Shown here: positions 1 through 64,000 of the stretch, piece after piece
Layout: each line of letters opens with the position of its first letter
How positions within the stretch are numbered: the stretch's first letter is position 1
Assembly (NCBI GenBank): GCA_964035545.1
Contig: OZ037767.1
Location: forward strand, 17,671,781 to 17,735,780
Direction of reading: 5' to 3'
Source of the DNA: Bugula neritina
Lineage: Eukaryota; Bryozoa; Gymnolaemata; Cheilostomatida; Bugulidae
Length of the DNA: 64,000 nt
Translations under genes and position numbers: made by a program
The notes under the pieces: generated by a model
What the model saw: only the letters and a program-made list of their open reading frames with translations
Told to the model about the DNA's origin: nothing
Databases searched by the model: none

Positions 1-322
1 CTTGTGAGTTGATTTCTACACCCTAGGTTATTATGTCAGTGTGTTATGTGTGACATGTGTACTCTGTGTGTGTGACATGCTACTCTGTGTGTGTGACATG
101 CTACACTGTGTGTGACATGTTACACTGTATGTGTGACATGTGTACTCTGTGTGTGTGACATGCTACACTGTGTGTGTGTGTGTGACATGCTACACTGTAA
201 GTACAGCTGTAAGTACAACTGTAAGTACAACTGTAAGTACAACTGTAAGTACAACTGTAAGTACAACTGTAAGTACAACTGTAAGTACAACTGTAAGTAC
301 AACTGTAAGTGCTGGTATTTAG
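1..322 (+). repeat. Intron of the upstream gene: TG-rich repeats, then a 12-bp array of donor-like units
   Basis: Bases 40-190 are irregular TGTGTGACATGCTACACTG-type repeats. From about 188 to 312 there are some ten perfect copies of the 12-mer GTAAGTACAACT, each containing the ideal metazoan 5' splice site GTAAGT. The stretch ends at a plausible acceptor (TTTAG at 318-322) before a protein-like exon. Open frames through this stretch are low-complexity and not credible as protein. Confidence 0.75.
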
Positions 323-1039
323 TCACGACTAACAACAAGAATCAGCTGCCAGTGCCGACCGCAGAGGCAGCAGTGAACGAGGAGGAGGACGAGGAAGTGC
401 AGTGGGCGGAGTGGAGCTCGCTGTCTGAGGAGCAGCTGTACAGACGGCTGGCAGAGAGGGCAGCCAAGAGAGCGAGTAGACCTTCTGTCACCAACAACAA
501 GCAGCAGTCTACTGGTCACTCCACAGGTCAGTTTACAGGTCACTCTACAGGTCACTCTACAGGTCACTCTACAGGTCACTCTACAGGTCACTCCACAGGT
601 CACTCCACAGGTCACTCTACAGGTCAGTTTACAGGTCACTCCACAGGTCAGTTTACAGGTCACTCTACAGGTCACTCTACAGGTCACTCCACAGGTCACT
701 CCACAGGTCACTCTACAGGTCAGTTTACAGGTCACTCTACAGGTCAGTTTACAGGTCACTCCACAGGTCAGTTTACAGGTCACTCTACAGGTCAGTTTAC
801 AGGTCACTCTACAGGTCACTCCACAGGTCAGTTTACAGGTCACTCTACAGGTCAGTTTACAGGTCACTCCACAGGTCACTCCACAGGTCACTCTACAGGT
901 CACTCTGTCTAATCTCAAGTCGGAAACCAGCAGACGTGCGAATGCAGTTGTAGACTTAGTTCTATTATATAGCAAGATATTTCCTTCAATGGAGATGCAG
1001 CGATTGTCTCATGCAATGAGTCATTACTTGCCTGATTAA
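323..1039 (+). CDS. 3'-terminal exons of an unrecognised gene (partial)
   Basis: Two protein-like stretches flank a 12-bp array. The first, from an acceptor at 321-322 to about 486-514, encodes an acidic then basic segment with NEEEDEEVQWAEWSSLSEEQ and LYRRLAERAAKRASRPS. The second, about 899-1039, encodes SETSRRANAVVDLVLLYSKI and an amphipathic tail ending LSHAMSHYLPD with TAA at 1037-1039. AATAAA signals at 1077-1082 and 1084-1089 follow, so this is a genuine 3' end. I do not recognise the family. The two stretches are in different frames. Using CAG|GT sites of the array at both ends keeps frame 1 and runs into a TAA at 910-912. A weak donor at 486/487 (TCT|GTCACC) joined to an acceptor at 898 would restore the second frame. 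The real junction is therefore unresolved. Confidence 0.5.
511..906 (+). repeat. 12-bp minisatellite with CAG|GTCAC/CAG|GTCAG in every unit
   Basis: About 32 units of CTCTACAGGTCA or TTTACAGGTCAG/TCCACAGGTCAC variants. Each unit contains a CTACAG acceptor-like end immediately followed by a GTCACT/GTCAGT donor-like start. If translated, the array reads as Ser-Thr-Gly-His repeats without a stop. It lies between the two coding stretches of the terminal gene and is most economically an intron, although translated use cannot be excluded. Confidence 0.8.
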
Positions 1040-1076
1040 CTTCCTGTTACTTCAGCCAATGAGAGTTAGTGATGCA

Positions 1077-1201: not shown

Positions 1202-2496
1202 CTATTCCTTCTTCGTCTCACAGAAAGATTTCCCTGAAACATAATATGGCAATTCAATATCTAATAGTACTAATACAGCTAGTACTATTAGTACTAGTAG
1301 CACTACTAGTACAGCTAGTACTACTAGTACAGCTAGGACTACTAGTACAGCTAGTACTAGTACTAGTAGTACCACTAGTACAGCTAGTACCACTAGTACA
1401 GCTAGTACTACTAGTACTAGTAGTACTACTAGTACTAGTAGTACTACTAGTACAGCTAGTACTAATAGTACAGCTAGTACAGCTAGTACTACTAGTACTA
1501 GTAGTACTACGAGCACAGCTAGTACTACTAGTACTGCTAGTACTACTAGTACTAGTAGTACTACTAGTACAGCTAGTACTCAATCTAGCAGTGTGTTGCT
1601 ACACTGTATCCACTCACCAGGTCTGACAAAGAAATCTCTTTTTCCAACAAGTGTCTGCTCGGGCAGCTCATGTATGCGGGGCAGCTGTGGCAGGGGTTCG
1701 GGATAGTAGATACACTGTGTACCTGGCTCACAGCCACACGAGGCAAAGTCGGGGTAGTGACAGCTCGTCCCGTTCCTAATGTAGTCAACACACCTGCCTG
1801 CAAACACCAGCAGATGCTAGAATAGGGGGTTGGGGGGGGGGGTTGAATATTCACCAGGCAATGGCCGGTTACATCACATCTTCTAATGTGAATAACTGAG
1901 TATACGTGTCATACCTTTGGGTCTCTCTGCTATTTGCGGCTCCAGCACCTCTCTTCTGCTTACCACAAAGAATTTATATTCATCCACACAGCACTGTTGG
2001 GGTGTGCAATCATCATCCACTTCACAGTAGATGTATTTATCCTACAATATCACAGTATAGTATCACAGTATACTATCACAGTACTACAGTATACTATCAC
2101 AGTACTACAGTATACTATCACAGTAACACAGCATACTATCACAGTAATACAGTATACTATTGCAGTAATACGGTATACTGTCGCAGTAATACAGCATACT
2201 ATCACAGTAATACGTATACTATCGCAGTAATACGTATACTATCGCAGTAATACAGATACTATCACAGTAATACGGTATACTATCACAGTAATACAGTATA
2301 CTATCACAGTAATACGGTATGCTGTCGCAGTAATACGGTATACTGTCGCAGTAATACGGTATACTGTCGGCAGTAATACGGTATACTGTCGCAGTAATAC
2401 GGTATACTATCACAGTCATACAGTGAGTGAACAACAAACCTCTGCAGTTGCTGCAATAACTGCTGTAATAAGCGCTAGTAAGACTGTCCAGTTCAT
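1202..2496 (-). CDS. Small secreted ten-cysteine protein, prokineticin/astakine-like (colipase fold)
   Basis: Complete gene of four exons: 2496-2440, 2041-1915, 1797-1618, 1233-1202 (57+127+180+32 = 396 nt, 131 residues). Exon 1 starts at ATG 2496 and is a complete signal peptide, MNWTVLLALITAVIAATAE. The mature chain has ten cysteines: C-x5-C-x4-CC near the start (YCEVDDDCTPQQCCV), then C-x9-C, C-x-C-x5-C and a last Cys in the terminal exon (SFCETKKE). The first four-cysteine signature, the C-x9-C and the C-x-C-x5-C are those of prokineticins, astakines and Dickkopf C-terminal domains. The spacer after CC is longer (26 residues) than in prokineticins. Prokineticins signal through GPCRs, and astakines act as haematopoietic cytokines in crustaceans; the role here is inferred only. 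All introns are GT-AG with consistent phases (0,1,1), and two carry tandem arrays. Secretion is well supported; the family call is by cysteine pattern. Confidence 0.72.
1262..1580 (-). repeat. ACTAGT-type palindromic array in intron 3 of the prokineticin-like gene
   Basis: Near-continuous ACTAGTACTACTAGTACAGCT variants fill most of the intron 1234-1617. Because ACTAGT and AGTACT are palindromic, the array can fold on both strands and is open in several frames, giving spurious Val/Leu/Thr/Ser-rich ORFs. Confidence 0.85.
2042..2430 (-). repeat. ~21-bp array in intron 1 of the prokineticin-like gene
   Basis: Units of CAGTAATACGGTATACTATCA type (+ strand) with single-base variation. They run right up to the acceptor (GATATTGTAG on the minus strand) before exon 2 at 2041 and almost to the donor at 2439. 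Confidence 0.85.
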
Positions 2497-2780: not shown

Positions 2781-5700
2781 GTCAGACTGGCAGCAATACA
2801 GGTCAAGGTCAAGGTGGTTCCATGAGCGTCAGCGTGCCAAATCTCACCTCCAGCCGACAGGAAACCATGAACTTACTCGAGTCTTTCGCTAATCTGGCGA
2901 GCAGAAACTTTGGGTGTAACAACAAGTCTCAGACTACAGCCTCTACACTTCTCCGGGCTCTTAGCAGTAACAGGGCTTCTACAGGTAGTGTATTCTACAG
3001 GTAGTGTATTCTACAGGTAGTGTATTCTACAGGTAGTGTATTCTACAGGTAGTGTATTCTACAGGTAGTGTATTCTACAGGTAGTGTATTCTACAGGTAG
3101 TGTATTCTACAGGTAGTGTATTCTACAGGTAGTGTATTCTACAGGTAATGTATTCTACAGGTAGTGTATTCTACAGGTAGTGTGTTCTACAGGTAGTGTA
3201 TTCTACAGGTAGTGTATCTAATGGCTGTACGTTTTAGAATCTTTGTTGAGTGCAGCACAAAGTTTCCCTAATCTGAACAACTCGGGCCGAGGTGCAGGTA
3301 ACAATCCGTCCTCCACTGGGCAGCGGCAGTCCAATGTGCTGTCTCTCTCTCAGACTATGGCCCTCTCTCTCACCAACTCCAGCGACAGCGAAGCTGACTT
3401 CTTAGAGTCGTGTCACGCTCAGGTGTGTAGTGACAGTGTGTAGTGTGTGTAGTGTATGTAGTGACAGTGTGTAGTGACAGTGTGTAGTGTATGTAGTGAC
3501 AGTGTGTAGTGTGTGTAGTGACAGTGTGTAGTGTGTGTAGTGACAGTGTGTAGTGTGTGTAGTGATAGTGTGTAGTGTATGTAGTGACAGTGTGTAGTGT
3601 ATGTAGTGACAGTGTGTAGTGTGTGTAGTGACAGTGTGTAGTGTATGTAGTGACAGTGTGTAGTGTGTGTAGTGACAGTGTGTAGTGATAGTGTGTAGTG
3701 ACAGTGTGTAGTGTATGTAGTGACAGTGTGTAGTGTATGTAGTGACAGTGTGTAGTGTATGTAGTGACAGTGTGTAGTGTGTGTAGTGACAGTGTGTAGT
3801 GTGTGTAGTGATAGTGTGTAGTGTATGTAGTGACAGTGTGTAGTGTATGTAGTGACAGTGTGTAGTGTGTGTAGTGACAGTGTGTAGTGTATGTAGTGAC
3901 AGTGTGTAGTGTGTGTAGTGACAGTGTGTAGTGACAGTGTGTAGTGACAGTGTGTAGTGTATGTAGTGACAGTGTGTAGTGATAGTGTGTAGTGTATGTA
4001 GTGACAGTGTGTAGTGTATGTAGTGACAGTGTGTAGTATGTAGTGAGAGTGTGTAGTGTATGTAGTGACAGTGTGTAGTGTGTGTAGTGACAGTGTGTAG
4101 TGTATGTAGTGATAGTGTGTAGTGTGTAGTGACAGTGTGTAGTGACAGTGTGTAGTGTATGTAGTGACAGTGTGTAGTGTGTGTAGTGACAGTGTGTAGT
4201 GTATGTAGTGACAGTGTGTAGTGTATGTAGTGACAGTGTGTAGTGTGTGTAGTGACAGTGTGTAGTGTATGTAGTGACAGTGTGTAGTGATAGTGTGTAG
4301 TGTATGTAGTGACAGTGTGTAGTGTGTGTAGTGACAGTGTGTAGTGTGTGTAGTGACAGTGTGTAGTGTATGTAGTGACAGTGTGTAGTGTATGTAGTGA
4401 CAGTGTGTAGTGTATGTAGTGACAGTGTGTAGTGTATGTTTCAGGCACTCCTAGAAGGTATCGAAGACGAACAACCGGAATGTGTTGAAGAGGAAGACGA
4501 AGAAGACGACGAAGACGACGAGGACGAGATGAACTTGGAGGATGACATGTACAATGAGCTGATGGTATATTCCCTTCTAGTATCTCCCTTCTATATGTCT
4601 CCCTTCTATATGTCTACTAGTATCTCCCTATTCCCTTCTATATGTCTACTAGTATCTCCCTATTCCCTTCTATATGTCTACTAGTATCTCTATATATCTA
4701 CTAGTATCTCTCTATTCCCTTCTACATGTCTTCTAGTATCTCTATATTCCCTTCTACATGTCTACTAGTATCTCTCTATTCCCTTCTATATGTCTACTAG
4801 TATCTCTCTATTCCCTTCTATATGTCTACTAGTATCTCTCTATTCCCTTCTATATGTCTACTAGTATCTCTCTATTCCCTTCTACATGTCTTCTAGTATC
4901 TCTATATATCTTCTATATGTCTACTAGTATCTCTATATATTCCCTTCTATATGTCTACTAGTATCTCTCTATTCCCTTCTATATGTCTACTAGTATCTCT
5001 CTATTCCCTTCTACATGTCTACTAGTATCTCTCTATTCCCTTCTACATGTCTACTAGTATCTCTATATATCTTCTATATGTCTACTAGTGTCTCTCTATT
5101 CCCTTCTATATGTCTACTAGTATCTCTCTATATGTCTACTAGTATCTCTCTATTCCCTTCTATATGTCTTCTAGTATCTCTATATGTCTTCTAGTATCTC
5201 TATATATCTTCTAGTATCTCTATATATCTACTAGTATCTCTATATATCTACTAGTATCTCTATATATCTACTAGTATCTCTATATATCTTCTAGTATCTC
5301 TATATATCTACTATATATCTCTATATATCTTCTAGTATCTCTATCTGCTGCTAGGACGAAGAGGAGGGACACAACTCCGACTGCCACCGAAGGTCCTGGG
5401 ATGATGACTTTGTCCTCAAGCGCCAGTTTTCTGCTCTGGTGCCGGCATTTGACCCCCGACCCGGCCGCACCAATGTCAATCAGACTCAGGACTTTGACGT
5501 GCCACCTCCTGGAGAACAGGAGAGTGTGAGAGACAGTCAGTCTGAGTGTGAACAGGGGGAGCCCAGGCTAAGTCTGAGTATACGGGGACCCAGCTACCCG
5601 GGGGTGAGTCAGTTGAGTGGAAGCGAGGCTACGTGCTGAACAGAGTGTGAGCTGACCTTTGAACTTTGCTCTGTGTGCCACAACTTCCATAACCGGTGTT

Positions 5701-8700
5701 CTGTTTGCAGATGTCTGACATTGAAGTGCCTCTAGACGACCCCAACTCTACCATCTTCAAGTACGTGCAGACTCTCAGTCTAATGGGACCCCTGAATGGC
5801 AGAATGGAGAGGCTGAAGCGGATCTGGGACCCGACATACACCCTGATATACCGGGACGCGGATACGCCCCCCTCACAGCCAAAGAGACAGGAGAATACTG
5901 CAGTAAGTCTATGTCTATGTATATACTCTCTATGTCTATGTGTATACTCTCTATATCTATGTATATACTCTACTCTCTATGTCTATGTGTATACTCTCTA
6001 TGTCTATGTGTATACTCTCTATGTCTATGTATATACTCTACTCTCTATGTCTATGTATATACTCTCTATGTCTATGTGTATACTCTCTATATCTATGTAT
6101 ATACTCTCTATGTCTATGTATATACTCTACTCTCTATGTCTATGTGTATACTCTCTATGTCTATGTATATACTCTCTATGTCTATGTGTATACTCTCTAT
6201 GTCTATGTATATACTCTACTCTCTATGTCTATGTGTATACTCTCTATGTCTATGTGTATACTCTCTATGTCTATGTATATACTCTCTATGTCTATGTGTA
6301 TACTCTCTATATCTATGTATATACTCTACTCTCTATGTCTATGTATATACTCTCTATGTCTATGTGTATACTCTCTATGTCTATGTGTATACTCTCTATG
6401 TCTATGTATATACTCTACTCTCTATGTCTATGTGTATACTCTCTATGTCTATGTGTATACTCTCTATGTCTATGTATATACTCTACTCTCTATGTCTATG
6501 TGTATACTCTCTATGTCTATGTGTATACTCTCTATATCTATGTATATACTCTACTCTCTATGTCTATGTGTATACTCTCTATGTCTATGTGTATACTCTC
6601 TATGTCTATGTGTATACTCTCTATGTCTATGTGTATACTCTCTATGTCTATGTATATACTCTCTATGTCTATGTATATACTCTCTATGTATATACTCTCT
6701 ATGTCTATGTGTATACTCTCTATGTCTATGTGTATACTCTACTCTCTATGTCTATGTGTATACTCTCTATGTCTATGTGTATACTCTCTATGTCTATGTG
6801 TATACTCTCTATGTCTATGTGTATACTCTCTATATCTATGTATATACTCTACTCTCTATGTCTATGTGTATACTCTCTATGTCTATGTGTATACTCTCTA
6901 TGTCTATGTGTATACTCTCTATGTCTATGTGTATACTCTCTATGTCTATGTATATACTCTCTATGTCTATGTATATACTCTCTATGTATATACTCTCTAT
7001 GTCTATGTGTATACTCTCTATGTCTATGTGTATACTCTACTCTCTATGTCTATGTGTATACTCTCTATGTCTATGTGTATACTCTCTATGTCTATGTGTA
7101 TACTCTCTATGTCTATGTGTATACTCTCTATGTCTATGTGTATACTCTCTATGTCTATGTGTATACTCTCTATGTCTATGTATATACTCTACTCTCTCTC
7201 TCTCTCTGCAGGGCCGCTGGACCATGGGCTACGTGGCTCACTACATCGGCTCCGACACCCTCCCCAAGACCGAGCTGATAGACTATCTCAAGTCCAACGC
7301 TGAGGAGGACTTCCTGGCAAGATGGCGGCTGAGCGGCACGTCTAGAAACGTGAAGAAGACGAGGAACTGCTCCCAGCTGATGGCAGCTTACAAGGTAGAC
7401 TCAGTACCTACTAATTACATGTGATACTCTGGCACGTCACCATCTCCCCCCCCCTTTGTCATATAGACTACTGTGTACTACTTTGAGTATATCGTATACA
7501 ATATCATCTATTACTTTGAGTATATCGTATACAATATCATCTACTACTTTGAGTATATCATATACAATATCATCTATTACTTTGAGTATATCGTATACAA
7601 TATCATCTATTACTTTGAGTATGTCGTATACAATATCATCTACTACTTTGAGTATATCGTATACAATATCATCTATTACTTTGAGTATATCGTATACAAT
7701 ATCATCTACTACTCTGAGTATATCGTATACAATATCATCTACTACTCTGAGTATATCGTATACAATATCATCTATTACTTTGAGTATATCGTATATAATG
7801 TCATCTACTACTTTGAGTATATCGTATACAATATCATCTACTACTTCTAATCCTCTCTCAGGATTTCCTCAAGACTTACGGCCCCCGACTGGCCGAGCAG
7901 CAGAAACTCCAAGATGAGAGTCTGAGCAGACGGAGAGTGCTTAGTGACCTTGACACCCCGTATCACTCTGACGTCTGCTCGGTGGACGACGTTCTCCGCC
8001 TCCTGCAGTTCCTCTACGTCATCTCCCTGGAGACTAACGACGAGGCAGCCTTCGCTGTACAGCCGGAGAAGTTTGTCAGCAAAAAACTGACCAATAAGAT
8101 CAGTCAGCAGCTGAACGACTGCCTGGTATTGGCTAGCATGGCGCTGCCGGACTGGTGTGAGAGGCTGACTAAGTGGTGCCCCATGCTCTTCTCTTACGAC
8201 CTCAGGAGTCTTTACTACAACTACACGGCTTACGGCACCTCCAGGTATGTCTACCTGTACTATGTCATATAATATATCTACTATATTATATAGTATATCT
8301 ACTATGTTTTATAATATATCTACTATATCATATAATATATCTACTATGTCATATAATATATCTACTATATCATATAATATATCTACTATATCATATAATA
8401 TATCTACTATGTCATATAATATATCTACTATATCATATAATATATCTACTATATCATATAATATATCTACTATGTTATATAATATATCTACTATATCATA
8501 TAATATATCTACTATATCATATAATATATCTACTATATCATATAATATATCTACTATGTTATATAGTATATCTACTATGTCATATAATATATCTACTATA
8601 TCATATAATATATCTACTATGTCATATAATATATCTACTATATCATATAATATATCTACTATGTTATATAGTATATCTACTATGTCATATAATATATCTA

Positions 8701-11700
8701 CTATATCATATAATATATCTACTATATCATATAATATATCTACTATATCATATAATATATCTACTATATTATATAATATACTATCTTGCTACAGGGCCAT
8801 CATCAGTCTACAGAACAGGCGGGAGCAGACGCAGGAGAGAGGGGGCGGTACTAGAGTGAGCAGACGAGAGGACTCTGTAGAATACCGAGTGGGCAGACTG
8901 AAACACGAGAGAGTGAAGGTACCTCGCGGAGACAAGCTGCTTCCTTGGGCTATGCAGGTCATGAAGTACCATGCTGAGAGAAAGTCCGTGTTGGAGGTAT
9001 AATAGAGTAGCCTGTGGTCTCTGTAGCTAGAGTAGCCTGTGGTCTCTGTAGATAAAGTAGCCTCTGCTCTCTGTAGATAGAGTAGCCTGTGCTCTCTGTA
9101 GATAAAGTAGCCTGTGCTCTCTGTAGATAGAGTAGCCTGTGCTCTCTGTAGATAGAGTAGCCTAGAGTAGCCTGTGGTCTCTGTAGATAGAGTAGCCTGT
9201 GGTCTCTGTAGATAGAGTAGCCTGTGTTCTCTGTAGATAGAGTAGCCTCTGCTCTCTGTAGATAGAGTAGCCTGTGGTCTCTGTAGATAGAGTAGCCTGT
9301 GGTCTCTGTAGATAGAGTAGCCTGTGGAATCTGTAGATAGAGTAGCCTGTGGTCTCTGTAGATAGTGTAGCCTCTGCTCTCTGTTTTTAGATAGAGTTTG
9401 TGGAAGAGGAGGGGACGGGGCTGGGCCCCACCCTTGAATTCTATGCTCTGGTGTCCGCTGAGTTGCAGAAGACGGCACACGCCATGTGGGTTACAGACGA
9501 CAGCGAACACACGTCTGCTGAGAGAGCTGTAGATATAGGTCACGGGGTCAAACAGCCTGGCTACTACATTCAGGTACACATGTCCTTCAGATCTACTTGC
9601 TATTCTAGATTGAGAATCTCATCTGTTGAACTGCTACTAGTTGTTCTACTTGCTCTGGCTGTTGCCTGATTTCTATGTTTCTCTATCACAGAGACAGGGT
9701 GGCCTGTTTCCTGCCCCCTACCCGCAATCTCAGGTTGGGAAAGTCACAGATCTGTTCAGGTTCCTGGGCTGTCTGCTGGCGAAGGCACTGCAAGATGGCC
9801 GCCTGGTAGATGTGCCGTTGTCTCGCCCTTTCCTACGCCTCATGTGTATGGGCGAAGTGGGCAGCAATCTCACTAGACATCACGGCATAGAGCGTAGACA
9901 TCAGGGTGCAGATGTGACCACTCCTGTCAACTCTGACAGTTGCTCCAGTGAAGACGAGGATACTACCCCTACAGAGGTGAGTCATACTGAGTTACTACCC
10001 CTACAGAGGTGAGTCATACTGAGTTACTACCCCTACAGAAGTGAGTCATACTAAGATACTACCCCTACAGAAGTGAGTCATACTAAGATACTACCCCTAC
10101 AGAGGTGAGTCATACTAAGATACTTCCCCTACAGAGGTGAGTCATACTAAGATACTACCCCTACAGAGGTGAGTCATACTAAGATACTACCCCTACAGTG
10201 GTGAGTCATACTAAGATACTACCCCTGTACTATTATTCTCAGCACAAAGCGTCGGCGCCGACATCTCCCCGGCTAAAGGAGACTGCTGACTTGGACTCCT
10301 CCGACAGTCTCGTGCCCTCCTCCTGGTTCTCCTCCATTCTCACTGACTCTGACTTCCAACTCGTCTACCCGACAAGAGCCAACTTCCTTCAACAGCTCAA
10401 GAAACTTGCAGACGATAAGGCGGCCATTTTAGCTGACGTCACACTCGACGATATGGAGAAGACGCGCAAGTTGGACGAGCTTAAAGTAGTCACAGTCAGT
10501 GGAGAGGAGTTTAGCCTACAAGATTTGTGGTGAGTCTAGTTCTCAGTCTATTCTTACACTGAAGTCCTCAGTCTATTCTTACACTGTAGTTCTCAGTCTA
10601 TTCTTACACTGTAGTCCTCGGTCTATTCTTACACTGTAGTTCTCAGTCTATTGCTATGCAGCTGTTGATCCATGAATATTATTGGTCTGTTCTTTTAGCC
10701 TGAGTTTCACGTTCAACCCCTCCTCCACCGTGTACGGGTACGAGGAGGTGGAGCTGGTGCCCGGGGGAGCTGAGACTATGGTGGACATACACAATGTGGA
10801 GGAATACATTCAACTCGTCACAGACTTCTGTATGCACTCGGGAATTCAGTCTCAGCTTGACGCCTTCACAGGTAGGTGTCTGCTCGCTGTAATGGGGGTG
10901 GATATACTTACTCTATTAGGGGGTGGATATACTTACTCTATTAGGGGGTGGATATACTTACTCTATTAGGGGGTGGGTGGATATACTTACTCTATTAGGG
11001 GGTGGATATACTTACTCTATTAGGGGGTGGATATACTTACTCTATTGGGGGTGGATATACTTACTCTAGCAGGAGTGGATATAATTACTCTAGTAGGGGG
11101 TGGATATACTTACTCTATCAGGGGGTGGATATACTTACTCTATTAGGGGGTGGATATACTTACTCTATTAGGGGATAGCCACCTCACACACAAAGAATGA
11201 AAAGGACTGAGTCTCCATAGTCACTCTGATATTTATTCTGACTACAGTTTTCCTCTGTACTTTGCAGACGGATTTAATAGTGTATTCCCAATGGAGAAGT
11301 TACATTCATTTAGCCCTAGTGAACTAGTTGTGATGTTGTGTGGGGAGCAGTGCCCCCAGTGGACAAGGGAGGACATAATGCAGTACACGGAACCTAAGCT
11401 AGGCTTCACTAAAGACAGGTCAGTTTCCTGTCTAAATAGCAGTTCTTCTATTACTAGTATATATTACTAGTATATATTACTAGTATATATTACTAGTATA
11501 TACTACTAGTATATAGTACTAGTAATATAGTAATATATACTACTAATAGTATATACTAGTAATATATACTAGTATATATTAATAGTATGTATTACTATAT
11601 TACTAGTATATATTAGTCTACTAGTATATATTACTAGTATATATTACTATATGTTTATAGCCCGGGGTTCCTCAAGCTAGTCAATGTGCTGGTGGACATG

Positions 11701-15119: not shown

Positions 15120-15851
15120 ATGGAAGACGATGGCAATCAGAACCTGGCGTCTTCCCTCTGCCAGGCGGGATGTGGCTTCTTTGGTAACGCTCAGTTTGAC
15201 GGCATGTGCAGCAAGTGTTACAAGGACTCTGTCAAACGCAAACAGGCCTCACCAAAAGATAGTTCCAGCGCTGTCTTTCCTGCTGCCTCTTCATCTGCCC
15301 CGACAGCAATACCCGACACCACCCCGAGTGTGGAGACAGCACAGCCTACAGTGGCCGTCACGTCGGTGAAGAGAGAAGGGGGTGCAGGGGTGGCTGCTGC
15401 TACGTCAGACGGCTCAATCTTAGTAGACAAAGTTGAAGCTGCGTCTAGCAATTCCTTGGCTGCTAGTGAAGAAGCCAGCAATGAGAGTCCAACCAAATGT
15501 AAGCGCAACAGGTGCTACACCTGTAAGAAGAAGGTTGGTTTGACAGGTGGGTGCAGGTGATTGACCTGTGTTGTACTTCTAACAACTACTATGTATCATC
15601 TATATTATATTTTTACTAGAATACACTGCACAACATACTTATACTGCGTTACTTATATACACCAGCACAACATACTTATACTGCGTTACTTATATACACC
15701 AGGGTTTGAGTGCAGATGCGGAGGCACGTTCTGCAGCATACATCGGTATTCAGATAAACATGGATGTCAGTTCGACTACAAGGAGCACGGTGCTGACCAC
15801 ATAAGGAAAACCAACCCACTCGTTGTCAGCTCCAAAGTACAAAAACTGTAA
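15120..15851 (+). CDS. A20/AN1 zinc-finger protein (ZFAND5/ZFAND6 type)
   Basis: Two exons, 15120-15546 and 15703-15851 (427+149 nt, 191 residues; the family is about 200). An N-terminal A20 finger (residues ~14-38) shows [20 protein letters not shown] and a following Cys. A Ser/Thr/Ala/Val-rich linker follows. The C-terminal AN1 finger has [13 protein letters not shown] before the intron and [20 protein letters not shown] after it, keeping the C-x2-C...C-x-C-x4-C-x2-H-x5-H-x-C ligands. The intron splits the AN1 finger in phase 1. ZFAND5/6 proteins bind ubiquitin through A20 and act in proteasomal delivery and signalling; I cannot separate the two paralogues. AATAAA at 15876-15881. It is tail-to-tail with the SYNJ2BP-like gene. 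Confidence 0.92.
15629..15702 (+). repeat. Two-copy 37-bp duplication of the 3' splice site in the ZFAND intron
   Basis: CACAACATACTTATACTGCG plus TTACTTATATACACCAG is repeated exactly twice. The second copy ends at the real acceptor (CACCAG|GG, 15702/15703). It is a minimal version of the splice-site-anchored arrays elsewhere in the window. Confidence 0.9.
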
Positions 15852-35534: not shown

Positions 35535-35544
35535 GCTGGACGCT

Positions 35545-35650
35545 ACAGACACTACAGTGACTACAGACACTACAGTGACTACAGACACTACAGTGACTAC
35601 AGACACTACAGTGACTACAGACACTACAGTGGCTGCAGACACTACAGTGG
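35545..35650 (+). repeat. 18-bp repeat in the EIF4A3 3' UTR
   Basis: Six copies of GACACTACAGTGACTACA immediately after the stop, each with an internal CACTACAGTG palindrome. Confidence 0.85.
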
Positions 35651-42400: not shown

Positions 42401-43137
42401 ACTATCTACCTATCAACACATCACAATATTACTACATTTCCTTCATCACACACTCCTCTATTTGATCAACATTCATTACAAATTTTTAGTTATTAGTTAT
42501 GGTTTTTAGTTAATAATAAATTTTAGGGTTTGCACCTTTACGATGTTGCCACTGTACTTTATTTGTTATAATCATTAAGATAGTGTAATGTGTTTTAGTA
42601 TTTCTTTCTGTCAGAAAGTTGTAATATCCAACATCCACTCTTCTTTGTGCATAATTTCCTGTGTCCCTCACCCTTTCTTCACTATTGGCCACAAAACACA
42701 AGCTGTATTTATCTGCTACATTATAACATACTGCATTTCCCAGTGTCTCATTCATTTCTAAACAGAGATCCTTCATAACAACTATTCCAATTTCTGATAT
42801 TGCCAGTATAATCTCTCAATTTTACTGCAAAATTGCAGACGTGTTAGCTTTTCTATTGCACTGAGTTGTGTTATTAGACTGTGCTCAATCCTTGCATGTG
42901 TACGGGTGGGTATCTAGTGCCACCTCATTTCTAAAAGTGTGCTGTTATTTCTATAGCCAGAAACCTCAGACCTACTCAGCCCGCTAATGGAAGCTGCAGA
43001 GAGTATCGACAATCAACTGTGGATTCCTGGCAATCGAGTTCTTATTAATTTAAATCTTCAACGTAAGTATTCTTGTAGTGATAGTAGTACTAGTAGTAGT
43101 ATTAGTATTAGTGGTAGTAGTGGTGGTGGTAGTAGTG

Positions 43138-43168
<31 letters not shown>

Positions 43169-54072: not shown

Positions 54073-57000
54073 TTCAGAGCTCACCTCTACTTTAGAGTCA
54101 CAGCCCAAGAAGTTTGGCCCAGCAGCTGAGGTCAGCCCATCAGGGCAGCACTCATGTTCAGTGATGTCACAAGGCTGAGCGTCGCCAGCACACCCTAGGA
54201 GGCCCGGACCGGCTGCTGCCGTCACGCCATCGGAGCAGCATCCCCACTGACTGACATGACACAGCTCCTGGTGAGGACAGTTCGACATCTGGGGGTCTGT
54301 AGCAGTGGTAACATCGTCTGCACAGCAACCATACCTGTGTGATGTCACAATATAGTGAGATATGAACGCTCAACAGCCTTAGGTCATGAGGGACATGTCA
54401 GTACGAATGGCTACACAAACCTTGACTTGGAGCATGGGCTTCTTGATACACACTCTGTGTCTTCACATTTTCTGCTCTTTTGTTCTGTAAGGAAGCAACA
54501 ACTGGTTGATAACCACAATGCATCAGTCACCCACAACACACTAGCGAGTTAACTCAGCTACAGAGTAAACCCAACATCATACCATTGAGATATACAGCTT
54601 CACCAACTGTGTTGTATATGTAGATATCTCACCTACACTTTGTATATGTAGATCTCTCACCTACACTTTGTATATGTAGATCTCTCACCTACACTGTTGT
54701 ATATGTAGATATCTCACCTACACTTTGTATATGTAGATCTCTCACCTACACTGTTGTATATGTAGATATCTCACCTACACTGTTGTATATGTAGATATCT
54801 AACCTACACTGTTGTATATGTAGATATCTCACCTACACTGTTGTATATGTAGATATCTAACCTACACTGTTGTATATGTAGATATCTCACCTACACTATT
54901 GTATATGTAGATATCTCACCTACACTGTTGTATATGTAAATAGGAGAAGCTTGGCTTTCCATTCCACTGGTGCTGACGGCTAGAATTTTAAAGTAGTAAG
55001 TAGTTGAAATCTTCAAAGAGAGGCTGTAAGCAGTTTGCTTCACTGAGAAGACTCTCCATAAAGCATCCGCTTCTTCTATGCTGTCGGTAAACCTGTGGAG
55101 GGGTTTGGTTACACTATTAGCACCAGATCTTAGTACGTATAGTAGTAGTAGTATATACTATCATGCAGATATTATTAGTAGAAAAGAAATAACTAACTCA
55201 CCTGATGACGTAGGAAGATACATTCTGTGCTGACAGAGACTCCCAACTGAGGTCCACCACCACCCTGTCGGTAGCTACGGCGTTTCTCTCCACCAGAAAA
55301 TTAATAGGAGCTGGAAAGAGGATCCCTTGCGATGAAAGTGCGTTGCTTGTAGCATTGGCAGAGGCATTTAGAGAGCCTAAGGTGGTTGGGGAACTAGCAG
55401 GAGTAGTTGATGCTGGCGGCGACTTAGTACCAACTCTAGGTTGACCAGTCTCACCTCTAAGCTTCACCGAGTTGTCAGTAGCAAATGAAGGCTCATGAGT
55501 TGCAGTCTCAGTCGTATATTTGTTCATTACAAGAGTGGTGCCATCTTCTACAACTGTAGGTGCATCTCTATCTACTGTAGCTGTTTCAGTATCAACTGTA
55601 GCTGTTTCTGTATCTACTGTAGTTGTCTCTGTGTCTACTGTAGTTGTCTCGGTGTCTACTGTAGCTGTCTCTGTGTCTACTGTAGCTGTTTCAGTATCTA
55701 CTGTAGCTGTCTCTGTGTCTACTGTAGCTGTTTCAGTATCAACTGTAGTTGTCTCTGTGTCTACTGTAGTTGTCTCTGTGTCTACTGTAGCTGTCTCTGT
55801 GTTTACTGTAGCTGTCTCTGTGTCTACTGCAGTTGTCTCTGTGTCTACTGTAGTTGTCTCTGTGTCTACTGCAGTTGTCTCTGTGTCTACTGCAGTTGTC
55901 TCATCAACAGCCTCACTCACTACAGCAGGCTCCACTTGGTCAATTTGTGCAGAAGGTCCAGCATTTGTTAGAGATGCAGATTCTGTTGATAGTATTAGTT
56001 AGAGAGTATATAAGTTGATAGTATTAGTTAGAGAGTATATAAGTTGATAGTATTAGTTAGAGAGTATATAAGTTGATAGTATTAGTTAGAGAGTATATAA
56101 GTTGATAGTATTAGTTAGAGAGTATATAAGTTGATAGTATTAGTTAGAGAGTATATGAGTTGATAGTATTAGTTAGAGAGTATATAAGTTGATAGTATTA
56201 GTTAGAGAGTATATAAGTTGATAGTATTAGTTAGAGAGTATATGAGTTGATAGTATTAGTTAGAGAGTATATAAGTTGATAGTATTAGTTAGAGAGTATA
56301 TGAGTTGATAGTATTAGTTAAAGAGTCCTCTAGGATAAGTCACAGCTACTAAATAAAAGAAAAGATGAAATACCTACCTCTCTGATAAAAGAACATGACG
56401 GTGGTAGATAATGGACTCTGTGAAATACTGTTGATAGCGTTGACCCTGAAGTAGGTGGGAGGATGAATCCTAACTCTTGACACAAGAGAAGACTCAGTGA
56501 CGGCAGCAGACGCCCATTCACTCGGTGCAGCCAACTTGTTGGTGGAATAATAAATCTGTAAATGAAGCGTGAAAAGCATGAATTCACAGTAGAGAATAAC
56601 TGACAGTACAGAGTGACTCACAGTAGAGAGTAACTCACAGTGGAGAGTAAATCACAGTCGAGAGTAACTGACAGTAGAGAGTAACTCACAGTACAGAGTG
56701 ACTCACAGTAGAGAGTAACTCACAGTAGAGAGTAACTCACAGTAGAGAGTAACTCACAGTAGAGAGTAACTCACAGTAGAGAGTAACTAACAGTAGAGAG
56801 TGAGAGAAACTTACAGTGTAAAGGTCCACGGGTGCCTCAGGATACGGTGGTTCCCATTTTACCAAGATCTCTACAGAATTATCATCATCAACATCACTGA
56901 GAGCAATGACTTCTAGATCTACTGGGGGAGTGTTGAGAGGCGTATCTGGTTGTCTGTCAAATACTGGAGTGGAGTCGAAGCTAATGGTACTGCTGGAAAA

Positions 57001-59886
57001 GAATGACGTATCTGTAAAAGGTAGGGTAGAAGTATCTGTATACATCTCTGGTATTTCAGAAGAGGAAAAAGGTACTTCCACTGTAGAGGTCTCTGGTGGT
57101 ATCCATGGCAACTCAGAAGTTTCAAATGATGAGAGAGTAGGCAGCCATGTGGTGGTTTCTGCTTGTTCATCTGCAGCAGTATATATGAGAGAATAGTAGG
57201 GTATATAATAGTATATATGAGAGAATAGTAGTGTATATAATAGTATATATGAGAGAATAGTAGTGTATATAATAGTATACATGAGAGAATAGTAGTGTAT
57301 ATAATAGTATATATGAGAGAATAGTAGTGTATATAATAGTATATATGAGAGAATAGTAGTGTATATAATAGTATATATGAGAGAATAGTAATGTATATAA
57401 TAGTATATATGAGAGAATAGTAGTGTATATAATAGTATATATGAGAGAATAGTAATGTATATAATAGTATATATGAGAGAATAGTAATGTATATAATAGT
57501 ATATATGAGAGAATAGTAGTGTATATAATAGTATATATGAGAGAATAGTAATGTATATAATAGTATATATGAGAGAATAGTAGTGTATATAATAGTATAT
57601 ATGAGAGAATAGTAATGTATATAATAGTATATATGAGAGAATAGTAATGTATATAATAGTATATATGAGAGAATAGTAATGTATATAATAGTATATATGA
57701 GAGAATAGTAGTGTATATAATAGTATATGTGAGAGAATAGTAGTGTATATAATAGTATATATGAGAGAATAGTAATGTATATAATAGTATATATGAGAGA
57801 ATAGTAGTGTATATAATAGTATATATGAGAGAATAGTAATGTATATAATAGTATATATGAGAGAATAGTAATGTATATAATAGTATATATGAGAGAATAG
57901 TAGTGTATATAATAGTATATGTGAGAGAATAGTAGTGTATATAATAGTATATATGAGAGAATAGTAGTGTATATAATAGTATATATGAGAGAATAGTAGT
58001 GTATATAATAGTATATATGAGAGAATAGTAGTGTATATAATAGTATATATGAGAGAATAGTAATGTATATAATAGTATATATGAGAGAATAGTAATGTAT
58101 ATAATAGTATATATGAGAGAATAGTAGTGTATATAATAGTATATATGAGAGAATAGTAGTGTATATAATAGTATATATGAGAGAATAGTAGTGTATATAA
58201 TAGTATATATGAGAGAATAGTAGTGTATATAATAGTATATATGAGAGAATAGTAATGTATATAATAGTATATATGAGAGAATAGTAATGTATATAATAGT
58301 ATATATGAGAGAATAGTAGTGTATATAATAGTATATATGAGAGAATAGTAGTGTATATAATAGTATATATGAGAGAATAGTAATGTATATAATAGTATAT
58401 ATGAGAGAATAGTAGTGTATATAATAGTATATATGAGAGAATAGTAGTGTATATAATAGTATATATGAGAGAATAGTAATGTATATAATAGTATATATGA
58501 GAGAATAGTAATGTATATAATAGTATATATGAGAGAATAGTAGTGTATATAATAGTATATATGAGAGAATAGTAATGTATATAATAGTATATATGAGAGA
58601 ATAGTAGTGTATATAATAGTATATATGAGAGAATAGTAGTGTATATAATAGTATATATGAGAGAATAGTAGTGTATATAATAGTATATATGAGAGAATAG
58701 TAGTGTATATAATAGTATATATGAGAGAATAGTAGTGTATATAATAGTATATATGAGAGAATAGTAGTGTATATAATAGTATATATGAGAGAATAGTAGT
58801 GTATATAATAGTATATATGAGAGAATAGTAATGTATATAATAGTATATATGAGAGAATAGTAGTGTATATAATAGTATATATATGAGAGAATAGTAGTGT
58901 ATATAATAGTATATATGAGAGAATAGTAGTGTATATAATAGTATATATGAGAGAATAGTAGTGTATATAATAGTATATATGAGAGAATAGTAGTGTATAT
59001 AATAGTATATATGAGAGAATAGTAATGTATATAATAGTATATATGAGAGAATAGTAGTGTATATAATAGTATATATGAGAGAATAGTAATGTATATAATA
59101 GTATATATGAGAGAATAGTAGTGTATATAATAGTATATATGAGAGAGTAGTAATGTATATAATAGCATATATGAGAGATACTATGAACTCACTGTCAGTT
59201 ACAATGATTAAGATGTCATTAGAAGTTGTCTCCCCAGTTTTAGTCGCAGTGACCTGACAGACGTAAGCTCCCGAATCTTTTTCATTGACATACTCAATAG
59301 AAAGTTGGCTCACCCCAGAAGTAGATTGGATCTATAAATAGATCAGGTAGAGACATACTGAGTGGAAAGAGTTGTGTAGAGTACTGAGTACTAGTTAGTA
59401 AGTATATAAATATAGAGCACCTTAACTCTATGGGAAGTTGTAAGCTCTCTAGACTCCACTTCGTCTAAAGGAGTGAAATACCAGATCGAGGTGTGTGGAA
59501 CATCTGGCAGACTGCAGGTCAGTTCAATATCACTTCCCACAGTAACAATTCTAGAGTCTGCATCTATAGTATTTAATATAGTATCACAGTAATAAATATA
59601 TAATACCACAGTATTAAATATATAATACCACAATAATAAACATATAATACCCCAATATTAAATATATAATACCACAATATTAAACATAATATCACAATAT
59701 TAAACATAGTATCACAATATTACATATAGTACCACAATATTATATATAGTACCACAATATTATATATAATACCACTTAGTTGTTTAAGTAGTCACTTAGT
59801 TACTCAAGTTGAGGCAAATACTTACCTATGCAGTGACTTAAATGAGCAGCCAGAAGTAAGAGAATAGATTGTACAAGAAACCCCAT
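45082..59886 (-). CDS. Papilin-like secreted matrix protein: Ig, FN3, mucin repeat, five Kunitz, antistasin-like, Ig, PLAC
   Basis: Complete 20-exon gene, in order: 59886-59826, 59563-59421, 59331-59193, 57170-56815, 56555-56378, 55982-55202, 55092-54920, 54484-54421, 54334-54085, 53932-53824, 53638-53462, 53057-52875, 52758-52576, 52214-52050, 51859-51674, 51361-51134, 50978-50682, 50440-50165, 47194-47039, 45326-45082 (4350 nt, 1449 residues). Signal peptide MGFLVQSILLLLAAHLSHC; Ig (residues ~21-114); Ser/Thr-rich then FN3 (~115-292); Thr-Glu-Thr mucin repeat (~320-430); FN3 (~500-610); papilin-type CC-x-DG-x-T repeats (~632-715); five Kunitz domains (~751-1049), one per phase 1-1 exon; antistasin-like Cys module (VCANSCLHGYIVNELGC); three Ig domains; PLAC domain (ADCRLIVKYNFCSHPVYRIY then C). 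Kunitz P1 residues in order are Thr, Arg, Arg, Leu, Ala, so domains 2 and 3 look trypsin-inhibitory. Papilin normally starts with thrombospondin repeats; these are absent. Confidence 0.9.
45304..46965 (-). repeat. ~36-bp array copying the last 3' splice site and exon start of the papilin-like gene
   Basis: About 45 units. On the gene's strand each reads TGTTGTAG|TGAATAGACTGAGTATAA plus GTAGTGTGTA, against the real junction TTGTAG|TGAATAGACTGAGTATAA at 45327/45326. Most units are 36 bp (twelve codons) and stop-free in the gene's frame over long runs; some are 30-34 bp. Confidence 0.93.
47195..50164 (-). repeat. 3-kb, 43-bp array filling the intron between two papilin-like Ig exons
   Basis: About 69 units. 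On the gene's strand the intron opens CGAG|GTATACAGTCACTATACC and units open GTATATACAGTCACTATACC followed by CAGTAGAATGTTCTATATCT. The last unit blends into CTACTCACAG|AG at 47195/47194. It is very homogeneous, with a few two-state sites (ACTAGG or ACTGGG, TATACT or TATAAT). Confidence 0.95.
50445..50660 (-). repeat. ATGTATACACTATATAACAT array in a papilin-like intron
   Basis: Six or so units, ~30 bp, between exons 50978-50682 and 50440-50165. They contain TATATAGTGTATAC palindromic stretches. Confidence 0.85.
50998..51112 (-). repeat. Short CACTGTGTAACACAATA array in a papilin-like intron
   Basis: About five imperfect units in the 155-bp intron between the antistasin-like exon and the first of the three C-terminal Ig exons. 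Confidence 0.8.
51377..51665 (-). repeat. TATATAGTAGTAATATATAT array in a papilin-like intron
   Basis: About ten imperfect 26-28-bp AT-rich units between the Kunitz 5 exon and the antistasin-like exon. Confidence 0.85.
51888..52040 (-). repeat. ACTGTATAGTAACATA array between Kunitz 4 and Kunitz 5 exons
   Basis: About eight 18-20-bp units, with a local inversion (TACTATACAGTATAGTA). It ends ~10 bp from the donor at 52049. Confidence 0.85.
52215..52575 (-). repeat. ACTGTAGTGTGTGCTGTAG array abutting the Kunitz 4 3' splice site
   Basis: On the gene's strand, units end in TATACTGTAG or TGTGCTGTAG and the true acceptor is TGTATGCTGTAG|AT at 52215/52214. The array also begins within a few bases of the donor at 52575, so the whole 361-bp intron is repeat. 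Confidence 0.88.
53062..53450 (-). repeat. ~37-bp array between Kunitz 1 and Kunitz 2 exons
   Basis: Ten copies of ATATTACACACTGTGTACAA plus TACAGTATCACATACAG (+ strand), with GACAT/GAGAT variants. It begins within ten bases of the acceptor at 53058. Confidence 0.9.
54008..54069 (-). repeat. (AG)n microsatellite in the intron between the papilin-repeat exon and the next exon
   Basis: About 50 bp of AG repeat at 54016-54069 (CT on the gene's strand), just inside the donor at 54084 of exon 54334-54085. Confidence 0.9.
54600..54938 (-). repeat. 29-bp array copying a papilin-like 5' splice site plus 19 exon bases
   Basis: On the gene's strand the exon ends TACATATACAACAGTGTAG|GTGAGATATC (54920/54919). 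Eleven or so units repeat this 29-bp string, including the GTGAGA donor and 19 coding bases. Some units have AACAAAGTGTAG or GTTAGATATC variants. Confidence 0.93.
55560..55905 (-). repeat. Coding 21-bp minisatellite (7-residue Thr-Val-Asp-Thr-Glu-Thr units)
   Basis: About 16 units of A/T-TVDTET inside the 781-bp exon 55982-55202 of the papilin-like gene, predicted to form a mucin-like, O-glycosylated acidic spacer. The period is a multiple of three and no unit is broken. Confidence 0.9.
55984..56325 (-). repeat. 29-bp array abutting a papilin-like 3' splice site
   Basis: Twelve copies of (gene strand) TATACTCTCTAACTAATACT plus ATCAACTTA. The last merges into ACTATCAACAG|AA (55983/55982). TACTAAC-like branch-point motifs (TAACTAAT) are present in every unit. 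Confidence 0.9.
56590..56805 (-). repeat. 14-bp CACAGTAGAGAGTAACT array in the FN3 intron
   Basis: About a dozen imperfect CTCACAGTAGAGAGTAA units in intron 56814-56556. Confidence 0.85.
57175..59170 (-). repeat. 2-kb, 32-bp array in papilin-like intron 3
   Basis: About 62 units of AGTATATATGAGAGAATAGT plus AGTGTATATAAT (+ strand), with AATGT/AGTGT alternation. It runs from ~4 bp inside the acceptor TACTGCTGCAG side to ~23 bp from the donor at 59192. Its 858- and 749-residue ORFs are artefacts. Confidence 0.95.
59580..59770 (-). repeat. AATATTAAACATAATACCAC imperfect repeats in papilin-like intron 1
   Basis: Imperfect ~19-bp AT-rich units with ATATAATACCACAATATTAA motifs inside the intron between the signal-peptide exon and the first Ig exon. 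Confidence 0.75.
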
Positions 59887-62502: not shown

Positions 62503-63832
62503 ATGTTGAGACGACAGGTTCGAGAAAGGAAGGAGTTTATATACAGGAAGTCCGAGCAAGCTCGAGCTCAGAAGATTGAAGCTACGAAGCGAAAAGCCAG
62601 AGAGGATGCCGGCCTACATTTGGAGGACAAATTCACTACTCAGACTTATGAGGAGCAAGAGAAGATGAAACTGCGTTAGTTGTACTAATATACTGTAGTT
62701 GTACTAGCGTACTGTAGTTGTACTAGCGTACTGTAGTTGTACTAGTATACTGTAGTTGTACTAGCGTACTGTAGTTGTACTGATATACTGTAGTTGTACT
62801 AGTGTACTGTAGTTGTACTAGTATAGTGTAGTTGTACTAGCGTACTGTAGTTGTACTAGTATACTGTAGTTGTACTAGTGTACTGTAGTTGTACTAGTAT
62901 AGTGTAGTTGTACTAGCGTACTGTAGTTGTACTAGTATACTGTAGTTGTACTAGTGTACTGTAGTTGTACTGATATACTGTAGTTGTACTAGTATACTGT
63001 AGTTGTACTGATATACTGTAGTTGTACTAGTATACTGTAGTTGTACTAGTATACTGTAGTTGTACTAGTGTACTGTAGTTGTACTGATATACTGTAGTTG
63101 TACTAGTATACTGTAGTTGTACTGATATACTGTAGTTGTACTAGTATACTGTAGTTGTACTAGTATACTGTAGTTGTACTAGTATACTGTAGTTGTACTA
63201 GTATACTGTAGTTGTACTAGTATACTGTAGTTGTACTAGTATACTGTAGTTGTTATTGTACACTCTGTGGTGTAGAACTGGCTGAAGGTGCGGACAAAGA
63301 GCTGATTGCTGGAACACGAGATGACGAGTACAGGTGGGCCGGAGTAGAAGATCCTAAAATACTCATAACTACATCCCATAGCCCTAGCTCCAAACTCAAG
63401 GAGTTCGCCAAGGTCTGTCTTCAAATAGTATTGAATATAGTGTGTAGACTGTGTTCTGTACAGCATAGACTGTGTTCTGTACAGCATAGACTGTGTTCTG
63501 TACAGCATAGACTGTGTTCTGTACAGCATAGACTGTGTTCTGTACAGCATAGACTGTGTTCTGTACAGCATAGGCTGTGTTCTGTACAGCATAGACTGTG
63601 TTCTGTACAGCATAGACTGTGTTCTGTACAGCGTAAACTGTGCTGTATTTATTGAATAGAAAGCATATAGAAGGGTGTAACATTGTAGGAACTCAAACTG
63701 CTTTTCCCAAATTCCCAGCGAATCAACAGGGGAGATTATGACATTCAGCAGCTAATGGATGCGTGTCGGGCCAACGGGGTGACTGACGTGATAGTAGTAC
63801 ACGAGAGAAGAGGTGTGCCTACTCAGTTAGTA
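62503..63832 (+). CDS. IMP4: IMP4, U3 snoRNP / small-subunit processome protein (5' part)
   Basis: Three exons in the window: 62503-62674, 63276-63412, 63689-63832 (phases 1 and 0); the remainder runs off the right end. Start [20 protein letters not shown] matches the IMP4 N-terminus (human MLRREARLRREYLYRKAREE). The second exon carries [20 protein letters not shown], and the third [20 protein letters not shown] and [20 protein letters not shown], the opening of the Brix domain (about 150 of ~290 residues present). IMP4 binds U3 snoRNA in the nucleolus for 18S rRNA processing. An acceptor-like site at 62482 directly upstream implies a 5' UTR exon or a short in-frame leader. Confidence 0.95.
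62675..63252 (+). repeat. ~19-bp TGTAGTTGTACTAGTATAC array starting at the IMP4 intron 1 donor
   Basis: About 30 units beginning CTGC|GTTAGTTGTACTAATATAC at 62674/62675 with GTAC/GTAT, AGCG/AGTG and CTGATA variants. It ends ~23 bp before the acceptor at 63275. Confidence 0.9.
63440..63645 (+). repeat. 21-bp array (CAGCATAGACTGTGTTCTGTA) in IMP4 intron 2
   Basis: Nine to ten near-identical units between the donor at 63413 and the acceptor at 63688. Confidence 0.92.
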
Positions 63833-64000
63833 GTGAGTTAGTAACTAGTAATAGTATAGTATACACACAGTTAGTAGTGAGTTAGTAACTAGTAATGGTA
63901 TAGTGTACACTCAGTTAGTAGTGAGTTAGTAACTAGTAATGGTATAGTATACACACAATTAGTAGTGAGTTAGTAACTAGTAATGGTATAGTATACACAC
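63820..64000 (+). repeat. ~43-bp array copying the IMP4 exon 3 donor with exon bases
   Basis: The exon ends ACTCAGTTAGTA|GTGAGTTAGTAACTAG at 63832/63833. At least three further copies follow to the window end, each with CAGTTAGTA|GTGAGT (or CAATTAGTA). The third copy also has the full ACTCAGTTAGTA, i.e. 12 exon bases. Confidence 0.9.

Follow-up and report, generated by a model that had tools for sequence, protein, structure and literature searches.

Do the tandem arrays that crowd the introns of this locus grow out of the exon-intron junctions, or do they arise inside existing introns and spread until only the splice signals remain? The locus is a 64,000-nucleotide stretch of the bryozoan Bugula neritina (contig OZ037767.1, referred to here as C3; C3:17671781-17735780), which we call the window, in a genome assembly of 215.8 Mb and 295 contigs. 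An earlier sequence-only reading had proposed that introns here are built by recurrent tandem duplication templated at their own splice sites. We modelled eight genes on both strands (B to I), all frame-checked, with 62 GT-AG introns fixed by reading frame and domain match. Most of the longer introns in the window are largely one array, and the units that we tested are private to their array, yet the arrays have a common lexicon. We believe that this probably reflects a regional takeover of introns by locus-private minisatellites.

Arrays called with Tandem Repeats Finder (TRF) make up 54.6% of the window. They account for 81.4% of intron bases (72.8% without a single 13-kb intron), compared with 6.6% of coding sequence and 12.6% of the remaining intergenic or untranslated DNA. 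Some array is present in 45 of the 47 introns longer than 150 bp, and 43 introns of any length, two of them no longer than 150 bp, are at least 30% array (41/47 of the longer class), in agreement with the sequence-only claim that nearly every intron above about 150 bp holds its own array. Six long introns stay under this mark: 16663-16836, 19684-20506, 36895-38318, 38549-39039, 42352-42956 and 44032-44314. Counting arrays of at least 80 bp, we found 47 in introns, 7 between genes and 2 in exons, which corresponds to 6.3 arrays per kb of non-array DNA in introns against 0.8 in intergenic DNA (47 vs 7 arrays; binomial P = 2e-10); arrays are therefore far from equally common between genes. Three of the 7 intergenic arrays lie near coding regions: 81 bp past the stop codon of gene C, 4 bp past that of eIF4A3 and at most 100 bp ahead of the gene D start. 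The two long exonic arrays have periods of 12 and 21, both multiples of 3, while 15 of 41 intronic periods are divisible by 3. The tests described below used 41 introns that are 30% or more array, with units no shorter than 5 bp; introns 53933-54084 and 43063-43421, whose units are 2-3 bp long, were left out.

Four of the 41 units were searched by exact match across the whole genome. All matches of the 43-bp unit of 47202..50163 (34/34), the 36-bp unit of 45308..46966 (17/17) and the 16-bp unit of 2977..3217 (11/11) fell inside their own arrays, and the 30-bp eIF4A3 unit gave 148 exact matches, none in reverse, of which the first 100 listed all lay within 21696..34687. The proposal that units differ between introns and do not form one mobile family is thus upheld for these four, and a mobile or dispersed satellite family is not supported, since the tested units are confined to their source arrays among the matches listed. 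The 41 arrays nevertheless have a common lexicon. TA, AC/GT and AG/CT are enriched and AA/TT, CC/GG, GC and CG depleted beyond the levels of array-free introns, window spacers and five array-free CCT loci; odds ratios are 1.81 for TA, 1.85 for AC, 1.55 for AG, 0.29 for AA and 0.40 for GC in arrays, compared with 1.12, 1.20, 1.22, 0.74 and 1.12 in array-free introns. Units free of AAA/TTT number 39/41 against 18.7 expected (95% range 12-24.5), and the density of ACT/AGT words has a median of 0.28 in arrays and of 0.13 in array-free introns; window spacers show a density of 0.14, 200 kb of contig C1 one of 0.11 and nine exons one of 0.09. Even in this array-poor C1 sample, density reached at least 0.2 in 24 of the 30 TRF rows listed (40 in all, overlapping). 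The lexicon shows no bias to the transcribed strand in the window (21/41 arrays, P = 0.90), and a lexicon that is common to the arrays without such a bias points to a process at the level of DNA that favours certain words. Single-strand folding was stronger in arrays (n = 39, mean z -2.5) than in other DNA (n = 62, -0.7; P = 0.004), which is only a hint of slip-proneness and may be due to the lexicon itself. As a separate observation, a (GTA)n 31-mer has 6468 exact genome matches, overlaps included, while the reversed pattern has 66. A stronger version of the takeover can be put forward tentatively: in some regions a DNA process acting on stretches of ACT/AGT/TA words would furnish almost all longer introns with a private array each and remove their own sequence as far as the splice signals. 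Most of the intron length there would then be locus-specific and interchangeable, with reading frames kept intact.

The lengths of the introns suggest that arrays replaced intron sequence. The part of an intron left outside its array (slack) has a median of 34 bp, and an intron collapsed to slack plus one unit has a median of 54 bp, compared with 107 bp for the 15 array-free introns (83-605 bp). Collapsed introns fall below 83 bp in 29/41 cases when the base period is used, in 26/41 with the best-scoring period and in 21/41 with the longest TRF period. A unit inserted into an ordinary intron would not leave so little, and the short collapsed lengths thus imply either that unique sequence was lost or overwritten or that the intron arose from the array. 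Growth can proceed by large blocks, since comparing the 13-kb eIF4A3 array with itself at an offset of 2222 bp gives 1930 overlapping 300-bp windows with an identity of 99% or more. In contrast, continuing growth from the junction, as the sequence-only reading had it, finds no support: identity to the consensus did not differ significantly between donor-end and middle copies (lower in 15 and higher in 10 of 33, P = 0.18) or between donor-end and acceptor-end copies (P = 0.66).

Within the sampled loci, the takeover looks regional. A contiguous 200-kb piece of C1 has 2.5% TRF coverage, although it seems gene-poor, with 13 exons above a score of 25 under an exon model that was trained on the window and may miss AT-rich genes. 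Of about eleven CCT-like loci on large contigs, six were sampled on five contigs, and five of these carry 0-1.3% arrays, compared with 13.6% at the locus on C6. Along C3 itself, twenty 2-kb samples were taken: the six between 17.2 and 18.2 Mb carry 11-99.5% TRF sequence (a 270-bp unit at 17.9 Mb), whereas ten of the other 14 carry less than 6% and the 0.5 Mb sample is all array. Array-bearing introns could be read directly at 17.50 and 17.78 Mb. Two samples that are almost entirely one array, C3:500001-502000 (L035, 26-bp unit) and C3:18200001-18202000 (L049, 20-bp unit), indicate other very long arrays. We also considered GC content at third codon positions as a predictor of arrays and found it loose at best (0.44-0.64 in window genes, 0.29-0.54 in CCT loci). 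In the search for CCT-like loci, the small contigs C71, C90, C139, C186, C195 and C211 gave long Cpn60 matches with in-frame TAA/TAG codons; these may be decayed copies, or they may come from contaminants in which the code is reassigned, for instance ciliates.

This distribution bears on the possibility that expansion is coupled to transcription or R-loops, with arrays made wherever DNA is transcribed and hence in introns and not in spacers. The excess of 47 intronic over 7 intergenic arrays is what such coupling would give, and three of those 7 do sit near coding regions (genes C and D and eIF4A3). However, the lexicon carries no bias to the transcribed strand, and five of the six sampled CCT loci are nearly array-free despite their introns. 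We therefore regard coupling to transcription as unlikely.

Whether array edges are anchored at junctions was assessed against uniform placement of each array inside its own intron. Donor edges lay within 6 bp of the junction in 19/41 introns against 10.4 expected (P = 0.0006) and at or beyond it (≤0 bp) in 8 against 1.6 (P = 5e-5), while acceptor edges did so in 8/41 against 10.4 and in 4 against 1.6 (P = 0.07). The comparison of edge distances with random placement that the sequence-only reading had proposed, run here on the window introns, thus favours it at donors and not at acceptors. All nine donors that it listed (2985, 3423, 5903, 21693, 35071, 39671, 40733, 62675 and minus 50164) are within 5 bp of an array edge or crossed by it; among the acceptors, array ends are confirmed at minus 52215 (0 bp) and at minus 55983 (2 bp), but the array of 4565-5354 stops 10 bp short. 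Pooling with seven whole introns from the continuation of gene I (L055) and from samples at 17.50 Mb (L045) and 17.78 Mb (L047) gave 21 donor and 9 acceptor edges within 6 bp among 48 introns (12.2 expected for each) and 10 and 5 at ≤0 bp (1.9 expected; P = 0.03 for acceptors); partial introns at these loci, L044, L046, L048, L049 and other samples without confident exon pairs were left out, as was the last intron of gene G (44032-44314), whose reading phase is ambiguous, from all edge tests. Since arrays leave a median of only 34 bp of intron, their edges must fall near junctions. A stricter null, which reserves 25 bp at the 3' end as array-free, expected 24.4 near donors against 19/43 seen; since eight acceptor edges come to within 6 bp of the junction, we rejected it as too strict.

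Some arrays do copy exon bases across the junction. In a swap control, exon matches to an intron's own array were compared with those to the 40 other arrays, in two versions of the test, with one flagged intron expected. Five of 41 donors were flagged per version: 2985, 9977 and minus 54919 in both, together with 39671 and 43541, or 1234 and 36543, in one. Two of 41 acceptors were flagged per version, minus 45327 in both and 16951 or 54485 in one. Six of the 48 pooled introns copy at least 8 exon nt (range 8-27), five at the donor (2985, 9977, minus 54919, 63833 and L045:1130) and one at the acceptor (minus 45327); the other 42 copy fewer than 8. Of the six crossings that the sequence-only reading had claimed, those at 2977 (8 nt), 9959 (18), minus 54942 (23), 63824 (9) and minus 45308 (19) stand, whereas the one at 9396 is weak: TRF ends that array 6 bp short of the acceptor, and the swap control did not flag a 7-nt match to the exon noticed by eye. 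The array at donor 63833 reaches 16 copies once neighbouring sequence is added, and a five-base overlap at the gene I acceptor 65328 was too short to count. The donor L045:1130, about 170 kb away at 17.5 Mb of C3, lies in a tyrosine-phosphatase gene, where 3.5 copies of a 29-bp unit include 27 exon nt in a 138-bp intron; it may represent an early, possibly young, stage. Reading frames and domain matches favour the outermost splice site as the one used.

We consider it improbable, and a little more so than coupling to transcription, that tandem duplication templated at exon-intron junctions is the general mode of intron growth. It accounts for the six exon-copying introns, the donor edges at ≤0 bp and the 3.5-copy array at 17.5 Mb, and in this sense templating may be retained for some arrays. 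However, without the six exon-copying introns the donor excess shrinks to 16/42 against 10.9 within 6 bp (P = 0.034) and 10 against 6.8 within 3 bp (P = 0.09), and acceptors show no excess (8 against 10.9 within 6 bp; 4 against 1.7 at ≤0 bp, P = 0.09). A good part of the anchoring thus comes from a minority of junction-crossing arrays, and what remains is close to, though slightly above, the level forced by full introns. Donor-end copies resemble middle copies in identity, the lexicon of the arrays is foreign to exons, and splice motifs are not supported as a common content of units. Scoring with generic matrices, we found no significant sense-strand bias in best scores for donors (24 higher, 16 lower, P = 0.20), acceptors (19/21) or branch-point-like motifs (13/12). 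Likewise, splice-site words did not differ between array introns and other introns (TAG acceptor 15/41 vs 7/21; GTA donor 24/41 vs 12/21). Interior sites that equal or exceed the authentic one in score are present for donors in 9/41 arrays (107 sites, counting the first 2 kb of each array) and for acceptors in 10/41, so that the decoy splice sites said to arise by the dozen are present in some arrays but are a minority feature.

We return to takeover by private minisatellites, which could proceed as follows. Arrays would be born on slip-prone stretches of ACT/AGT/TA words and would expand through slippage during replication and through unequal exchange, both ordinary processes. Selection would act on no more than about 6 nt at the donor and about 15-25 nt at the 3' end, so that the unique sequence of the intron would be lost or overwritten; we propose that edges settle at splice signals for this reason. 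In a minority, the first duplication may have straddled an exon-intron junction. Splicing would then continue to use the outermost splice-site copy, and extra copies, including their exon bases, would turn into intron. The five donor crossings against one acceptor crossing are what one would expect if a surplus acceptor upstream does more harm than a surplus donor downstream. Several points count against this account. It does not explain why introns were taken while intergenic DNA of the same region was mostly spared, nor why some regions are affected and others not. The loss of unique sequence is read from lengths within one genome, the lexicon is a description, and both the slip-proneness of its words and the instability of the arrays are presumed. 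Finally, even without the exon-copying arrays, 5/42 donor edges lie at ≤0 bp against 1.7 expected (P = 0.02), and the excess within 6 bp is nominally significant.

A further explanation is that the arrays are themselves new introns, born by tandem duplication of AGGT-type sites inside exons. Many collapsed introns are indeed shorter than any array-free intron here, and the units at 2985 and 9977 contain, by eye, both donor-like and acceptor-like words. On the other hand, exon sequence occurs in a minority of arrays only, and the array introns between the Kunitz and Ig modules of gene H are in phase 1. Phase 1 introns are typical of Kunitz and Ig modules that were shuffled in ancient times, and 14 of the 19 introns of gene H, including all of the last ten, are in this phase, which argues for array-bearing introns that are old and not new; we thus hold birth from arrays to be very improbable. 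Rogers reportedly modelled intron gain as tandem duplication of AGGT sites. The arrays described here are similar in that some involve tandem duplication across a splice site, but they reveal no new intron. The Rogers model is cited in PMC3087553, and a potato RdRp case is reportedly described in PMC4974935.

Just as improbable is a selected function of the arrays as splicing or regulatory elements, since their frequency in this region and the C. elegans minisatellite CeRep25B, described as mostly intronic and restricted to chromosome clusters (PMC4039745), are set against units that vary in sequence and length, have no common splice signal or strand bias, and are nearly absent from five of six CCT loci.

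The arrays are listed in Table 1. Gene B (minus strand) encodes a small cysteine-rich protein without a Pfam match, and its start (gene span 1190-2495) resembles a signal peptide. Gene C is a HECT ubiquitin ligase, presumably TRIP12-like, and its model is tentative upstream of 2781. Gene D has A20 and AN1 zinc fingers, and gene E is a PDZ protein with 52% identity to Watersipora subatra (best of three matches). Gene F is a DEAD-box helicase, eIF4A3 by protein matches. Gene G is LRRC71-like by protein matches (68% identity to W. subatra, best of 120 listed and 278 found); its 12-nt exon 38537-38548 is a guess, and 42331-42351 is a probable 21-nt micro-exon that keeps the frame between introns of 995 and 605 bp. 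Gene H has five Kunitz domains, three Ig domains and a PLAC domain, and we take it to be papilin-like. The gene I fragment has no Pfam match and is assumed to be IMP4-like.

Table 1. Tandem arrays of the window. d5 and d3 are the distances in bp from the TRF array edge to the donor and acceptor; a negative d5 places the edge inside the exon. TRF-set edges are uncertain by a few bases.
Array	Strand	Unit (bp)	Location	d5	d3	Remark
508..906	+	12	exon			multiple of 3, coding frame
1268..1580	-	9/36	gene B intron 1234-1617	37	34	
2048..2424	-	21	gene B intron 2042-2439	15	6	
2977..3217	+	16	HECT gene C intron 2985-3237			donor-crossing, 8 exon nt copied
3423..4439	+	22/66	intron 3423-4444	0	5	fills intron
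4571..5344	+	20/32/64	intron 4565-5354	6	10	
5908..7190	+	21	intron 5903-7211	5	21	59 copies
7476..7846	+	33	intron 7395-7861	81	15	
8258..8780	+	21	intron 8245-8794	13	14	
9002..9384	+	25	intron 8997-9390	5	6	possible 7-nt exon match at acceptor
9959..10226	+	32	intron 9977-10242			donor-crossing, 18 exon nt copied; swap control 12/12 exon bases match
10537..10652	+	25	intron 10530-10698	7	46	
10894..11174	+	25	intron 10872-11267	22	93	
11449..11649	+	13	intron 11419-11660	30	11	
15621..15702	+	37	A20/AN1 gene D intron 15547-15702		0	2.2 copies, ends at acceptor
16959..17095	-	22	PDZ gene E intron 16951-17309	214	8	
21251..21514	+	31	eIF4A3 intron 21241-21526	10	12	
21696..34687	+	30	eIF4A3 intron 21693-34745	3	58	13 kb, 433 copies
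35073..35485	+	12/33	eIF4A3 intron 35071-35517	2	32	TAG-type
35539..35649	+	18	presumed eIF4A3 3' untranslated region			begins 4 bp past stop codon
36541..36730	+	19	LRRC71-like gene G intron 36543-36760	-2	30	
39670..39886	+	30	intron 39671-39908	-1	22	
40238..40404	+	35	intron 40219-40453	19	49	
40733..40950	+	15/22	intron 40733-41017	0	67	
41358..41699	+		intron 41336-42330	22	631	TAG-type
43082..43314	+		intron 43063-43421	19	107	TAG-type
43540..43840	+	22	intron 43541-43883	-1	43	
45308..46966	-	36	papilin-like gene H intron 45327-47038			acceptor-crossing, 19 exon nt copied
47202..50163	-	43	intron 47195-50164	1	7	69 copies
50455..50663	-		intron 50441-50681	18	14	
50997..51096	-	17/34	intron 50997-51133		0	ends at acceptor
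51378..51668	-	22	intron 51362-51673	5	16	
51883..52042	-	20	intron 51860-52049	7	23	
52215..52572	-	12/31	intron 52215-52575	3	0	fills intron
52786..52868	-	13/39	intron 52759-52874	6	27	116-bp intron
53067..53455	-	39	intron 53058-53461	6	9	
53667..53778	-	14/46	intron 53639-53823	45	28	
54610..54942	-	29	intron 54485-54919			donor-crossing, 23 exon nt copied; swap control 12/12 exon bases match
55537..55902	-	21	exon			multiple of 3, coding frame
55985..56326	-	29	intron 55983-56377	51	2	
56584..56801	-	17	intron 56556-56814	13	28	
57178..59178	-	32	intron 57171-59192	14	7	62 copies
59576..59775	-	20	intron 59564-59825	50	12	
62677..63253	+	19	IMP4-like gene I intron 62675-63275	2	22	
63445..63642	+	21	gene I intron 63413-63688	32	46	
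63824..64000	+	44	gene I intron from 63833			donor-crossing, 9 exon nt copied; extends 532 bp beyond window

The closest described phenomenon is that of the amphioxus 'mirages' in Adh3 and the globins BflGb6 and BflGb9, which are presented as minisatellite-like tandem duplications of exon-intron boundaries at either intron end, with units of 10-72 bp (Adh3) or 150-160 bp (globins) in single genes (PMC3087553). Many of those units keep AG/GT signals, splicing is reported there to be undisturbed, and the duplications are proposed as a source of new introns. The six junction-crossing arrays found here similarly repeat exon bases, but, compared with the mirages, most arrays lie inside the intron, most longer introns of the region are affected and the arrays have a common lexicon. 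In Cryptococcus, intron-containing repeats expand and add new introns (PMC2395259); local repeat expansion alters gene structure in both cases, whereas the introns of the window seem to have existed already and to be filling up with short units. CeRep25B is one common family of mostly intronic minisatellites restricted to chromosome clusters, unlike the tested units, which are private to their own arrays (PMC4039745). Our literature searches, which covered titles and the beginnings of abstracts, with at most 20 papers listed per search and few subscription papers included, turned up neither a region in which private arrays have overrun the introns in general nor arrays of this kind in any bryozoan; this is weak evidence of novelty. 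The words tandem and intron are absent from the main text of the B. neritina draft-genome paper (PMC7576161).

Gene prediction in such genomes needs care, as the last intron of gene H illustrates. Its acceptor at 45326|45327 lies inside an array unit, and the exon then reads through an Ig domain, whereas an alternative acceptor leads to a stop; minus 45327 is easily misplaced because the array copies the splice site and the exon alike. Should private satellites be able to rewrite introns almost up to the splice signals, the dozens of independent arrays in this one region would constitute a natural experiment on the minimal intron, on the predominance of donor over acceptor junction duplications, and on a shared sequence grammar as a driver of minisatellite birth.

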